From NCBI GenBank assembly GCA_946628045.1, contig CAMOVZ010000015.1:1-8754 (forward strand): a stretch of 8,754 nucleotides of DNA, read 5' to 3'. How positions within the stretch are numbered: the first letter of the stretch is position 1; each line of letters starts with the position of its first letter. This DNA is from an uncultured Caryophanales bacterium. Lineage in GTDB: Bacteria > Bacillota_I > Bacilli_A > RF39 > UBA660. A program made the position numbers and the translations under genes. Below are positions 4,162-6,981 of the stretch, in pieces. A model generated the notes under the pieces. The model saw nothing but the letters and a program-made list of their open reading frames with translations. It did no database searches and was not told the origin of the DNA.

Positions 4162-4181
4162 TGATATAATAATTTCGGTGA
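4162..4181 (+). promoter_or_regulatory. Extended -10 promoter and Shine-Dalgarno of scpAB
   Basis: TGA (4162-4164) precedes a perfect TATAAT (4165-4170). Six bases later GGTGA (4177-4181) lies 5 bases before ATG 4187. TAGACT (4141-4146), with an 18-bp spacer, is a possible -35 sharing four of six consensus bases. The promoter begins in the T-run of the preceding terminator. Confidence 0.65.
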
Positions 4182-4186
4182 AAAGT

Positions 4187-4900
4187 ATGAATTATGACTT
4201 TAAAATAAATGACTTTGAAGGACCTTTAGACTTATTACTTCATCTTATTAAAGTTAATGAGATGGATATAATGAATATTCAAATTGAAAAAATAACTGAT
4301 CAATATGTAGAATATATTAATTCTTTAGAAAAAATGAATATAGAGGTAGCTTCTGAATATTTAGTTATGGCTAGTGAATTAATACAAATTAAGAGTAAAT
4401 TGTTGCTACCTAATGAGAGTATTGAATCAGAAGATGAAGAAGAAATTAATTCTAAAGAAGAGTTAATTAATAGATTGCTTGAATATGAGGCATATAAGAA
4501 AATAAGTAATATTTTAGAAGAAAAAAATGAAAATAGAAGTTTTATTTATACTAAATTACCTGAAAACATTAATAATTATATTGATGATAAACCTATTGAA
4601 CAAAATGGTGAAATAGATGATTTGGTTAATGCTTTTAAATTATTTCTAGAAAGAAATAAAAAGAATAAACCTTTGAAAACTAAAGTAACTGTAAATGAAA
4701 TTAGTATTACTAAAAGATGCAGTGATATTAGAAATATATTAAAAAGTAATAAGAAAGTATCTTTTTTTAAGTTATTTGAATATAATAGTAAAGACTATAT
4801 AGTTGTTACATTTTTAGCAATTCTTGAGATGTGTAAAAATAAAGAATTGACTATTAATCAAGATGATACTTTTGGAGATATAATTGTGGAGAGTGTATAG
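4187..4900 (+). CDS. scpA: Segregation and condensation protein A
   Basis: ScpA is the kleisin of the bacterial SMC-ScpAB condensin. It bridges the SMC heads and binds a ScpB dimer, compacting and separating chromosomes. The 237-residue product starts with the family signature FEGPLDLLLHLIK (about 9-21), continues with the conserved ITDQYVEYI and ASEYLVMASELIQIKSKLLLP stretch of the N-terminal SMC-binding helices, has an acidic linker (SEDEEEINSKEEL), and ends in the C-terminal winged helix (KVSFFKLF and ILEMCKN). Length is normal. I chose ATG 4187, with GGTGA 5 bases upstream, over the in-frame GTG at 4178, which lies inside that ribosome binding site. The stop TAG is directly followed by the ATG of scpB, so the two are an operon and probably translationally coupled. 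Confidence 0.96.
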   Translation: MNYDFKINDFEGPLDLLLHLIKVNEMDIMNIQIEKITDQYVEYINSLEKMNIEVASEYLVMASELIQIKSKLLLPNESIESEDEEEINSKEELINRLLEYEAYKKISNILEEKNENRSFIYTKLPENINNYIDDKPIEQNGEIDDLVNAFKLFLERNKKNKPLKTKVTVNEISITKRCSDIRNILKSNKKVSFFKLFEYNSKDYIVVTFLAILEMCKNKELTINQDDTFGDIIVESV

Positions 4901-5470
4901 ATGAAGGCAGTATTAGAAGGACTATTATTTGTTGTTGGAGAAGATGGATTAACTATTGATCAAATAATGGATATTTTAGATATAGATGAAAATGCTTCTA
5001 AAGAGTTAATTAAAGAATTAAAGTCTGATTATGAAGATGAGTCTCGTGGTTTAAGAATAGATTTTTTAGGTAATAGATTTAAATTAACTACTAAAGAAGA
5101 ACATAAAGATTATTATCAAAAATTAATTGAAAATCCTATGTCTAATAAGCTTAGTCAAGCAGCGTTAGAGACTCTAGCAATTATTGCATATAATGAGCCA
5201 ATTACTAGGATGAAAATAGATAATCTTAGAGGAGTTTCTTCAGTTCAAATAATTAGAAAATTAGTTGCGAAAGGCTTTATTAAAGAGAGTGGTAGAAGTA
5301 ATTTACCTGGAAGACCTATTTTATATGAAACAACTAATGAATTTTTAGATTATTTTGGATTATCTTCTATTGATGAATTACCTGATGTTTCTAAATTTAT
5401 AGAACAAAATACTGAAGAAGTTGATGAAAATAGTGATTTATATACTTCAAAATATGTTGAAAGTGAATAA
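4901..5470 (+). CDS. scpB: Segregation and condensation protein B
   Basis: ScpB is the dimeric winged-helix partner of ScpA in the SMC condensin. The 189-residue protein has the expected two winged-helix domains. The second contains the most conserved family segment, LSQAALETLAIIAYNEPITR (about 84-103), then GVSSVQIIRKL and GRSNLPGRPILYETT, and EFLDYFGLSSIDELP. The C-terminal tail after about 165 is acidic and variable, as is common. Length is normal. The start touches the scpA stop codon (TAGATG), and GGAGAG at about 4888-4893 inside the end of scpA serves as ribosome binding site. No clear hairpin terminator follows; the next gene appears to have its own promoter in the 75-bp gap. Confidence 0.96.
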   Translation: MKAVLEGLLFVVGEDGLTIDQIMDILDIDENASKELIKELKSDYEDESRGLRIDFLGNRFKLTTKEEHKDYYQKLIENPMSNKLSQAALETLAIIAYNEPITRMKIDNLRGVSSVQIIRKLVAKGFIKESGRSNLPGRPILYETTNEFLDYFGLSSIDELPDVSKFIEQNTEEVDENSDLYTSKYVESE

Positions 5471-5545: not shown

Positions 5546-6601
5546 ATGAAGAAAAAATTAATAATAATAACAATTTTTTTATTGGTAATTTGTACAGTTC
5601 CTGTATTTGCTACTGATAAGAATGCATTTAAAGCAGGAGAAACTATTAACTTAGAAGAGGAGGTTAATTCTACATCATTTTTTGCTGGTAATAATATTAA
5701 CTTATCTTCTACTATAGATGGAGCAAGTTTTGCTGCTGGTAATAATATTATTGTATCTAATAAACAAGATTATTTGTTTGTAGCAGGTAATAATATTGAA
5801 GTAGTAAATGCTGATACTAAAGATGCTTTTATTGCTGGTAATAGTGTTACTATTGAATCTTCTAAAATTAGGGATTTATATGTTGCTGCTGAAGATATAA
5901 AGATTACTTCTGATATTACAAGAGATGCTTATATTGGGGGTAGTAAGGTTACTATTGACGGTGCTATTAAAGGAGATTTGAAGATAGAAGCTGATGAAAT
6001 TATTATTGGGGAAAATGCTTCTATAAAAGGTACATTAAAATATCCTGAAAAAGCAAATATTAAAATTGCTGAAACGGCGGAGGTACAAAATAAAGAAACA
6101 TATAAGACAAAAGAAGTGAATACTGAAGTAACTATTAAAGATGCAATTATTTCTGCTGTTACTAGTTTCTTATCATTATTATTAGTAGCGTTTATTTTAC
6201 TAGGTACTAATAAAAAACTATTTAAACAAATAAGTAAAGAAGAAAAAAGCGTAAATTGTTTTCTTAAGAATTCTTTAATTGGATTAGGATTATTACTACT
6301 TATACCACTTTTAGCTATTATTGTGTTATTTACTGTTATTGGTATTCCAATAAGTATTATTGCTTTATTATTATATGGTATATTTATTTATATTTCTTTA
6401 ATACCTACTGCTTATTATTTAGGTGGATGGATATTAAAAGATAAAATTAGTAATGAATATGCTATGTTAGGAATCTCTTTATTTGTGATTTTTGTTATTA
6501 AGTATATTCCGATAATAGGTGGTCTTGCTAATTTTATATTCTTAATATTTGGATTTGCTATTCTTTTAAAACAAATGAAGAAGTCTATGCATGAAAAATA
6601 A
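5546..6601 (+). CDS. Secreted bactofilin-like beta-solenoid protein with C-terminal membrane domain
   Basis: The 351-residue product begins with a signal peptide (MKKK, hydrophobic core 5-20, likely cleavage after VFA at about 22). Residues about 28-165 are a polar repeat domain of roughly 17-residue turns whose best copies read FFAGNNI, FAAGNNI, FVAGNNI, FIAGNSV, YVAAEDI and YIGGSKV, the pattern of a right-handed beta-solenoid related to bactofilin (polymer-forming cytoskeletal) domains. About 200-341 holds four or five hydrophobic helices, the first near 200-220, ending in a basic tail. With this order the solenoid should lie outside the membrane, unlike classical cytoplasmic bactofilins. 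Similar solenoid-plus-membrane proteins occur widely in Firmicutes, but I know no established function; an envelope or scaffold role is inference. The start has an excellent AAGGAG at 7 bases. It follows scpB by 75 bp and is probably transcribed separately. Confidence 0.8.
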   Translation: MKKKLIIITIFLLVICTVPVFATDKNAFKAGETINLEEEVNSTSFFAGNNINLSSTIDGASFAAGNNIIVSNKQDYLFVAGNNIEVVNADTKDAFIAGNSVTIESSKIRDLYVAAEDIKITSDITRDAYIGGSKVTIDGAIKGDLKIEADEIIIGENASIKGTLKYPEKANIKIAETAEVQNKETYKTKEVNTEVTIKDAIISAVTSFLSLLLVAFILLGTNKKLFKQISKEEKSVNCFLKNSLIGLGLLLLIPLLAIIVLFTVIGIPISIIALLLYGIFIYISLIPTAYYLGGWILKDKISNEYAMLGISLFVIFVIKYIPIIGGLANFIFLIFGFAILLKQMKKSMHEK

Positions 6602-6647: not shown

Positions 6648-6678
6648 TAAATACTTCTAATTAAACAAAAAGTATTTA
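6648..6678. repeat. Inverted repeat upstream of the tRNA-Thr-like gene
   Basis: TAAATACTT (6648-6656) and AAGTATTTA (6670-6678) are perfect 9-bp inverted arms 13 bp apart. The right arm overlaps the -35 box TTTACA of the tRNA promoter. A regulatory site is possible; chance is not excluded in such AT-rich DNA. Confidence 0.4.
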
Positions 6679-6703
6679 CATTTTCTTTGTTTTTTGTTAT
6701 TAT
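6675..6703 (+). promoter_or_regulatory. Promoter of the tRNA-Thr-like gene
   Basis: TTTACA (6675-6680), a 17-bp spacer, and TATTAT (6698-6703) preceded by TGT form a strong extended -10 sigma-A promoter. TATAAT at 6701-6706 is an overlapping alternative. The start is predicted near 6710, a few bases before the mature tRNA 5' end. Confidence 0.8.
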
Positions 6704-6718
6704 AATTACATAAGAAAT

Positions 6719-6794
6719 GCCGAAGTAGCTCAATTCTAGAGCAGTCACTTTGTTTGTGAATGGTTAGTGGTGTAAGTCCATCTCTTCGGCACCA
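6719..6794 (+). tRNA. Atypical tRNA-Thr(UGU)-like gene, candidate non-translational tRNA
   Basis: A cloverleaf of 73 nt plus encoded CCA (6792-6794) can be folded. Acceptor GCCGAAG/CTTCGGC is perfect (7 bp), with discriminator A. D-stem GCTC/GAGC is perfect, but the loop AATTCTA lacks G18-G19. The anticodon stem GTCAC/GTGAA has one G-A mismatch; loop TTTGTTT gives anticodon UGU (6751-6753, Thr ACA), with U rather than A at 37. The variable loop is TGGTT. The T-stem AGTGG/CCACT is interrupted by a bulged T (6781). T-loop TGTAAGT keeps T54 and A58 but has GT in place of the invariant TC at 55-56. Bases resembling normal Bacilli tRNA-Thr, G1-C72, C2-G71 and anticodon G35-U36, fit ThrRS recognition. 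It has its own promoter and terminator. Either a specialised tRNA avoiding the ribosome, or a decaying copy. Confidence 0.75.
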
Positions 6795-6805
6795 ATATGA
6801 TATTT

Positions 6806-6829
6806 ACTCTTCGAAAGAAGAGTTTTTTT
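6806..6829 (+). terminator. Intrinsic terminator of the tRNA-Thr-like gene
   Basis: ACTCTTC (6806-6812) pairs with GAAGAGT (6817-6823) around a GAAA tetraloop, followed by T at 6824-6829. It lies 11 bases after the CCA, so the tRNA is a single-gene transcription unit. Confidence 0.9.
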
Positions 6830-6885: not shown

Positions 6886-6894
6886 ATATTATAT

Positions 6895-6981
6895 TGGTGC
6901 CCCTATCCGGACTCGAACCGGAACTCTATTGCTAGAAGTAGATTTTGAGTCTACCGCGTCTACCAATTCCGCCATAGAGGC
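6895..6981 (-). tRNA. tRNA-Leu (anticodon CAA)
   Basis: A canonical class II tRNA of 87 nt including an encoded CCA (6897-6895). Acceptor GCCTCTA/TAGGGGC pairs with one G-U. The D-arm contains the normal GG in AATTGGTAGA. Anticodon stem GTAGA/TCTAC encloses CTCAAAA, giving anticodon CAA, which reads UUG. A long variable arm (CTA/TAG stem) is present, and the T-arm TCCGG-TTCGAGT-CCGGA is perfect with standard TTC. It faces the tRNA-Thr-like gene and serves as an internal control: its elbow bases are fully conserved while those of its neighbour are not. Confidence 0.97.

Follow-up and report, generated by a model that had tools for sequence, protein, structure and literature searches.

An extra threonine tRNA gene with near-staphylococcal changes suggests a wall-building tRNA for threonine in uncultured gut Bacilli

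The odd tRNA-Thr(UGU) gene and its surroundings

The stretch of DNA analyzed here, referred to as the window, comprises 8,754 nucleotides of an uncultured Caryophanales bacterium. On the forward strand, at positions 6719–6794, it carries an odd tRNA-Thr(UGU) gene with an encoded CCA end, identified by Rfam and by its homologues. The Rfam tRNA model matches positions 6719–6791 with 38.9 bits (gathering threshold 29, E = 1.5e-5) compared with 56.2 bits for the neighboring tRNA-Leu, and ARAGORN run on the window reported the tRNA-Leu(CAA) and missed the odd gene. The tRNA-Leu(CAA) gene is normal and located as a divergent neighbor on the reverse strand (6895–6981). Upstream lie the syntenic genes scpA and scpB (4178–5470, forward strand), assigned by Pfam and by their positions in relatives; in the related genomes G211 and G084 the scpB homologue is located directly 5’ of the odd tRNA.

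A sequence-only reading of this DNA had described both promoter and terminator of the gene as kept. A consensus scan detects a sigma-70-like promoter on the forward strand at 6675–6703 (TTTACA and TATTAT at a spacing of 17 with TG before the second hexamer); because two such sites were found in the region and 1.5 are expected by chance, it is a weak candidate. The terminator fared better: an intrinsic terminator-like hairpin followed by a T run is located at 6806–6823 (forward strand), with three such sites in the region versus 0.1 expected.

At the level of individual bases the earlier description of the tRNA was borne out. The acceptor stem (GCCGAAG/CTTCGGC) is paired in 7 of 7 and the D stem (GCTC/GAGC) in 4 of 4 positions, A73 is present and CCA occupies positions 6791–6794. 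The anticodon UGU (6751–6753, forward strand; sequence and Rfam) corresponds to the threonine codon ACA and is followed by U37 and U38 (6754–6755, forward strand), where normal copies of tRNA-Thr(UGU) have A37 and A38. The D loop AATTCTA (6732–6738, forward strand) is seven bases long, one base shorter than in a normal copy, and sequence, Rfam and relatives agree on two pyrimidines in place of G18-G19. The order CT given previously holds only for one placement of the missing base: the two bases read CU or UC, and Rfam places them as UC. In the T arm (6766–6783, forward strand) the loop UGUAAGU (6771–6777) contains G55 and U56, and the 3’ strand of the stem is bulged by an extra U at 6781. Thus none of the translational tRNA-Thr traits A37, G18-G19, U55-C56 and a regular T stem is present in the window gene. 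Not listed earlier were U38, a G-A mismatch at 27-43, which forms a pair in relatives, and a possible pairing between pyrimidine 18 and G55. Both halves of the elbow had been described as lost. G18-G19 and U55-C56 are indeed replaced, but with such an 18-55 pair the elbow might be modified without having disappeared altogether.

Two groups of relatives and their conservation

As center of the comparison we used the genome RUG13444 (G001, labelled uncultured Erysipelotrichaceae), whose contig is 98.8% identical to the window. Of the 291 genomes sampled from the family, at least 10 contain an odd tRNA-Thr(UGU) gene. Four of these holders form group I (G001, G211, G084, G221) and six form group II (G035, G170, G267, G154, G165, G026). 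Within the genus of G001, represented by four genomes, three have the gene: the G001 copy is identical to that of the window, and those of G211 and G084 are 87% identical to it. The site is unassembled in the remaining genome, G002, where one contig stops at about window position 5712 and another begins at 6894.

A covariance model of group I (R1), made from the copies of the four genomes, three of them distinct, scored 92.7–106.7 bits in its source genomes only when run over the 291 family genomes; the best genome after these reached 73.8 bits. Group II was found in 6 of the 291 by a DNA search starting from a weak relative in G035. Across the order, in a sample of 385 genomes from which G211 and G084 were absent, a group I pattern matched four, two of them real (G001, G221), as compared to three matches with a reversed control; the matches in G352 and G408 were discarded, since ARAGORN reported no tRNA there and visual inspection showed no 5’ acceptor strand. 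A class-wide R1 search returned 1 of 395 genomes (G001) at E ≤ 1e-17. The general Rfam tRNA model (E ≤ 0.001), applied to the four group I genomes, listed the odd gene in G001 and G221 and did not list it in G211 and G084. A viral origin was considered and rejected, as the patterns of both groups gave 0 matches in viral contigs and the window gene was unmatched in phage records.

The D loops of group I are AAUUCUA (window), AAUUUUA and AAUUUCUA; bases 18-19 are C/U in the window, UU in G211 and G084, and UC by plain numbering in G221. The T loops read UGUAAGU, UGUGAGU and UGCAAUU. Base 37 is U, with A37 in G221, and the pairs 49-65 and 51-63 are A-U and U-A in G001, G211 and G084, with G-C at 49-65 in G221. 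Group II represents a different solution, since it retains U54-U55 and probably G18, and base 56, which varies between U, C and A, is an A opposite U19 in two of the five distinct sequences. Its D arm contains an invariant stretch of 13 bases, TAACGTTAGAACG (14–26), which is the same in 6 of 6 genomes. In these tRNAs (L085 602–677, L309, L310, L311, L312 and L313) the stretch could fold into an alternative hairpin 17-19/24-26. Taking both groups together, pyrimidine 37 occurs in 9 of 10 holders, the exception being G221. All eight distinct odd sequences have a complete acceptor stem, and nine of the ten holders encode CCA (CTA in G026), which is consistent with charging.

The surroundings of the group II genes vary. 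G035, G170 and G267 have a protein gene in common downstream of the odd tRNA (L085 766–2061, L310 81–1379 and L309 82–1380); it encodes about 430 residues with a hydrophobic C-terminal end, and a Pfam scan of the L309 copy gave no match. In G165 and G026 a histidine-kinase-like gene adjoins the odd tRNA (the L313 copy was scanned), and in other holders the neighbors differ.

Sequence conservation is higher in the tRNA than in its flanks. Between G211 and G084 the tRNA is identical, with 83% identity in the 76 bases upstream and 59% downstream; between G001 and these two genomes the tRNA shows 87% and the flanks 43–58% identity. The three distinct group I sequences show two-sided changes at five base pairs, and 98.4% of the cells are paired, compared with 31–61% in slid controls; 5 of 500 shuffles did as well, a figure that is indicative since there are only three distinct sequences. 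In group II the acceptor, anticodon and T stems (the latter with U52 bulged) are paired in 5 of 5 distinct sequences, with two-sided changes at 6-67, 7-66, 27-43, 29-41, 30-40, 31-39 and 49-64; of the D stem only 10-25 and 11-24 are kept in all. Because the stems covary while the flanks diverge, the gene is not decaying: it is a conserved, structurally constrained second tRNA-Thr(UGU). The proposal of selection in place of random decay is thereby substantiated, with the odd bases kept between species, and random differences with broken stems were looked for and did not occur. A tree of 16 sequences (8 normal tRNA-Thr and 8 distinct odd ones) placed the odd tRNAs on one side of a branch with support 95/99. 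Given 76 alignment columns, this is also compatible with convergence.

The odd gene is accompanied by a normal tRNA-Thr(UGU) with GG, TTC and A37 in 7 of 10 holders (G211, G221, G026, G165, G154, G170, G267), which answers the question whether a normal copy exists elsewhere; in these seven the odd copy is not the sole reader of ACA. The normal copies adjoin tRNA-Val or Tyr-Gln. One was also found in G002, the genome nearest to G001 by Tex identity. G001 and G084 yielded none, and Val, Tyr, Phe, Asp and Pro are missing from the tRNA lists of these two genomes as well; the nine R1 matches in G035 did not include a normal copy either. In addition, contig C82 of G002 (L289, L306) carries dense tRNA genes without encoded CCA according to ARAGORN, two of them tRNA-Thr(UGU), and is perhaps part of a phage or other mobile element.

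Possible destination of the threonine

FemAB-type transferases are candidates for the receiving enzyme. The sequence-only reading had asked for FemX/MurM-type genes, and FemAB (PF02388) was detected in 30 of 30 genomes checked with 1–7 matches each, as compared to 3 of 14 control genomes; G211 has four FemAB proteins. The 30 genomes comprise G001, G002, G084, G211, G221 and G035, 18 from G003–G020 and six in which normal tRNA-Thr scored high with R1; some of these genomes yielded no odd tRNA, and FemAB is present there too. A tree of the 94 FemAB proteins of these genomes contained no clade restricted to holders (here G001, G084, G211 and G221; G002 and G035, the latter recognized afterwards as a group II holder, were counted as non-holders) except for pairs of sister species (G084 with G211). 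The label “holder” required 11 changes on the tree versus a mean of 14.2 after shuffling, and 3 of 500 shuffles were as low. A FemAB clade as specific partner was nevertheless discarded, because the low count is explained by the sister species G084 and G211. With genes in all 30 genomes and no clade tracking the tRNA, the FemAB link is unspecific. A tRNA-Thr near a FemAB gene in G017 turned out to be a normal copy in a usual tRNA cluster.

We consider it probable that the gene encodes a dedicated threonyl-donor tRNA, kept from translation, that feeds a FemAB-type peptidoglycan transferase. Threonyl-tRNA synthetase would charge the odd tRNA through its intact acceptor end and UGU anticodon. Odd and normal copies have the first four acceptor pairs and the anticodon in common, and threonine identity is described as residing in acceptor pairs and anticodon bases (PMC9976931). 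Judging from the staphylococcal case, a tRNA with U37, a bulged T stem and a rewritten contact between its D and T loops would be a poor ligand for EF-Tu and the ribosome. A transferase that depends on aminoacyl-tRNA would then take over the threonine and attach it to a peptidoglycan precursor; one of the several enzymes of the FemAB family in these genomes is the likeliest candidate for this step. Fem enzymes are stated to discriminate by amino acid as well as tRNA sequence (PMC4052509). Against this reading speak the unspecific FemAB link, G221, with A37 and G-C at 49-65, and the differing architecture of group II.

The destination of the threonine could be the cell wall or lipid. The same structural evidence, together with the unspecific FemAB link, would also fit a tRNA-Thr that is conserved for use outside translation and serves a different enzyme dependent on aminoacyl-tRNA, such as MprF-type lipid aminoacylation or a natural-product or protein-tagging transferase. 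We regard this as unlikely, as the closest likeness is to cell-wall tRNA-Gly and FemAB was present in every genome checked.

A regulatory tRNA mimic, for instance a T-box ligand or a small RNA, appears clearly improbable. The glyS T-box reportedly responds to non-proteinogenic tRNA-Gly, as the title of a 2015 study has it, and for tRNA-Other of Bacillus cereus, a pseudo-tRNA, functions other than translation are described, T-box regulation among them (PMC3399842). However, transcriptional T-boxes are said to generally grip the tRNA elbow including G19-C56 (PMC7583486), a pair that is absent in the odd tRNA, and the complete acceptor stems and the nearly universal CCA fit charging.

That the gene encodes an atypical but translational tRNA-Thr decoding ACA under some condition is very doubtful. 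Its UGU anticodon, intact acceptor and CCA would allow for it, as would the elbow variation seen elsewhere in the family, where three tRNA-Thr(CGU) have A19 and U56. On the other hand, a normal tRNA-Thr(UGU) coexists in the seven holders named above, the T-stem bulge and the loop changes are kept between species, and U37 rules out the modification t6A37. A decaying pseudogene, which the low Rfam score, the ARAGORN miss and the G-A mismatch at 27-43 of the window copy might suggest, is scarcely credible in view of the compensatory changes, the odd bases kept across species and the kept terminator-like site.

Comparison with known tRNAs

For the wall-building reading the relevant reference is the staphylococcal cell-wall tRNAs, which serve FemXAB. 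We searched with a sequence that we take to be a S. aureus non-proteinogenic tRNA-Gly and obtained a match of 100% in OR845017.1 (L337; 2,275 bases). ARAGORN predicts 23 tRNA genes in this record, including three tandem tRNA-Gly(UCC). This entry was deposited as a Staphylococcus phage clone and is apparently host chromosomal DNA. Bases 18-19 of the three genes are UU, CU and UU, base 37 is C, U and C, and the T loops read UGCAAAU, UGUAAAU and UGUAAAU. In the literature, three of five S. aureus tRNA-Gly are described as showing traits of weak EF-Tu binding, among them A49-U65 and A51-U63, and the three non-proteinogenic ones as having UU or CU instead of GG18-19 (PMC4052509); three non-proteinogenic tRNA-Gly are likewise said to escape EF-Tu (PMC9976931). 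From the UCC anticodon, UU/CU, A49-U65 and A51-U63 we infer that the tandem genes are the published set.

How unusual these changes are was assessed among 290 unique CCA-ended tRNAs reported by ARAGORN from the loci studied, a set that leaves out L337 and the odd genes missed by ARAGORN and includes the G221 odd gene (A37). Pyrimidine 37 occurred in 0 of 290. The D-loop GG was absent in five (the G221 odd gene, a prophage tRNA and three tRNA-Thr(CGU)) and T55 in three (the G221 odd gene, the prophage tRNA and one Asn). The three tRNA-Thr(CGU), located in L170, L175 and L325, carry GA for GG18-19 and U56, and their elbow pair 19-56 seems to have changed from G-C to A-U with compensation. Since they too have no GG, with A19 facing U56, loss of GG alone is not decisive. 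Furthermore, we noticed a second odd tRNA in G084 (L122 531–605; C1 about 38,830–38,905, minus strand) with a CUU anticodon, a mismatch at 1-72 and no D-loop GG. Phage genes for head, portal and terminase lie no more than about 10 kb away, and the T loop of this tRNA, UGCAAAU, is that of one S. aureus cell-wall tRNA-Gly.

Compared with normal bacterial tRNA-Thr(UGU), the odd tRNAs share the acceptor GCCG.../...CGGC, A73 and the UGU anticodon. They differ in having neither G19 nor a regular T stem, and A37 is missing in 7 of 8 distinct sequences and kept in G221. The B. cereus tRNA-Other is similarly tRNA-like and placed outside translation. In contrast to the odd gene it has a Trp anticodon, is poorly charged with Lys, adjoins a pathogenicity island and is possibly part of a larger regulatory RNA (as given in PMC3399842), whereas the odd gene is closely followed by a terminator-like site and its acceptor stem is complete.

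The likeness to the S. aureus tRNA-Gly is closer and, for group I, the staphylococcal analogy drawn earlier holds closely at 18-19, in the T loop and at base 37. Both have two pyrimidines at 18-19 (the exact UU in G211 and G084) and T loops starting with UGUAA (window) or UGCAA (G221). U54-G55-Y56 is found in 4 of 4 group I genomes and 3 of 3 S. aureus genes, in both sets pyrimidine 18 faces G55 with 19-56 unpaired, and a turned-round 18-55 contact is possible. The odd tRNAs of both groups resemble the S. aureus genes in pyrimidine 37 (S. aureus 3 of 3) and as extra copies alongside a normal isoacceptor. In the window copy, moreover, bases 49-65 form an A-U pair and bases 51-63 one of A-U type. 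Differences are the threonine anticodon and acceptor, the T-stem bulge, the single copy found per genome, the occurrence in uncultured gut Bacilli and UC, not CU, at 18-19 in G221. Because of its UGU anticodon and threonine identity we do not place the odd tRNA in the tRNA-Gly set and compare it only as one that would work alike. Group II has U54-U55, and probably G18 with U19 in place of the UU/CU-type replacement.

We give an even chance to the idea that a threonine wall tRNA, independently of the staphylococcal tRNA-Gly, arrived at almost the same set of substitutions (pyrimidines at 18-19 and at 37, with a UGYRA T loop), G18-U55 being turned into a possible pyrimidine 18-G55 contact. If true, the bases that take a tRNA out of translation would follow a general sequence code. 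Group II could be a second solution, with its invariant D-arm stretch UAACGUUAGAACG as recognition mark for the receiving enzyme. A threonine case with such closely matching substitutions would be an independent test of the bases that remove a tRNA from translation; it would also imply that uncultured gut Bacilli have threonine in their cell wall, and it offers a signature (pyrimidines 18-19, G55, pyrimidine 37) for finding other diverted tRNAs in genomes. Among the matches listed in a search of the open-access literature we found no paper on a non-translational tRNA-Thr, which is weak evidence of novelty. Dedicated wall tRNAs are already known for glycine in S. aureus; new here would be threonine instead of glycine and the second architecture of group II.
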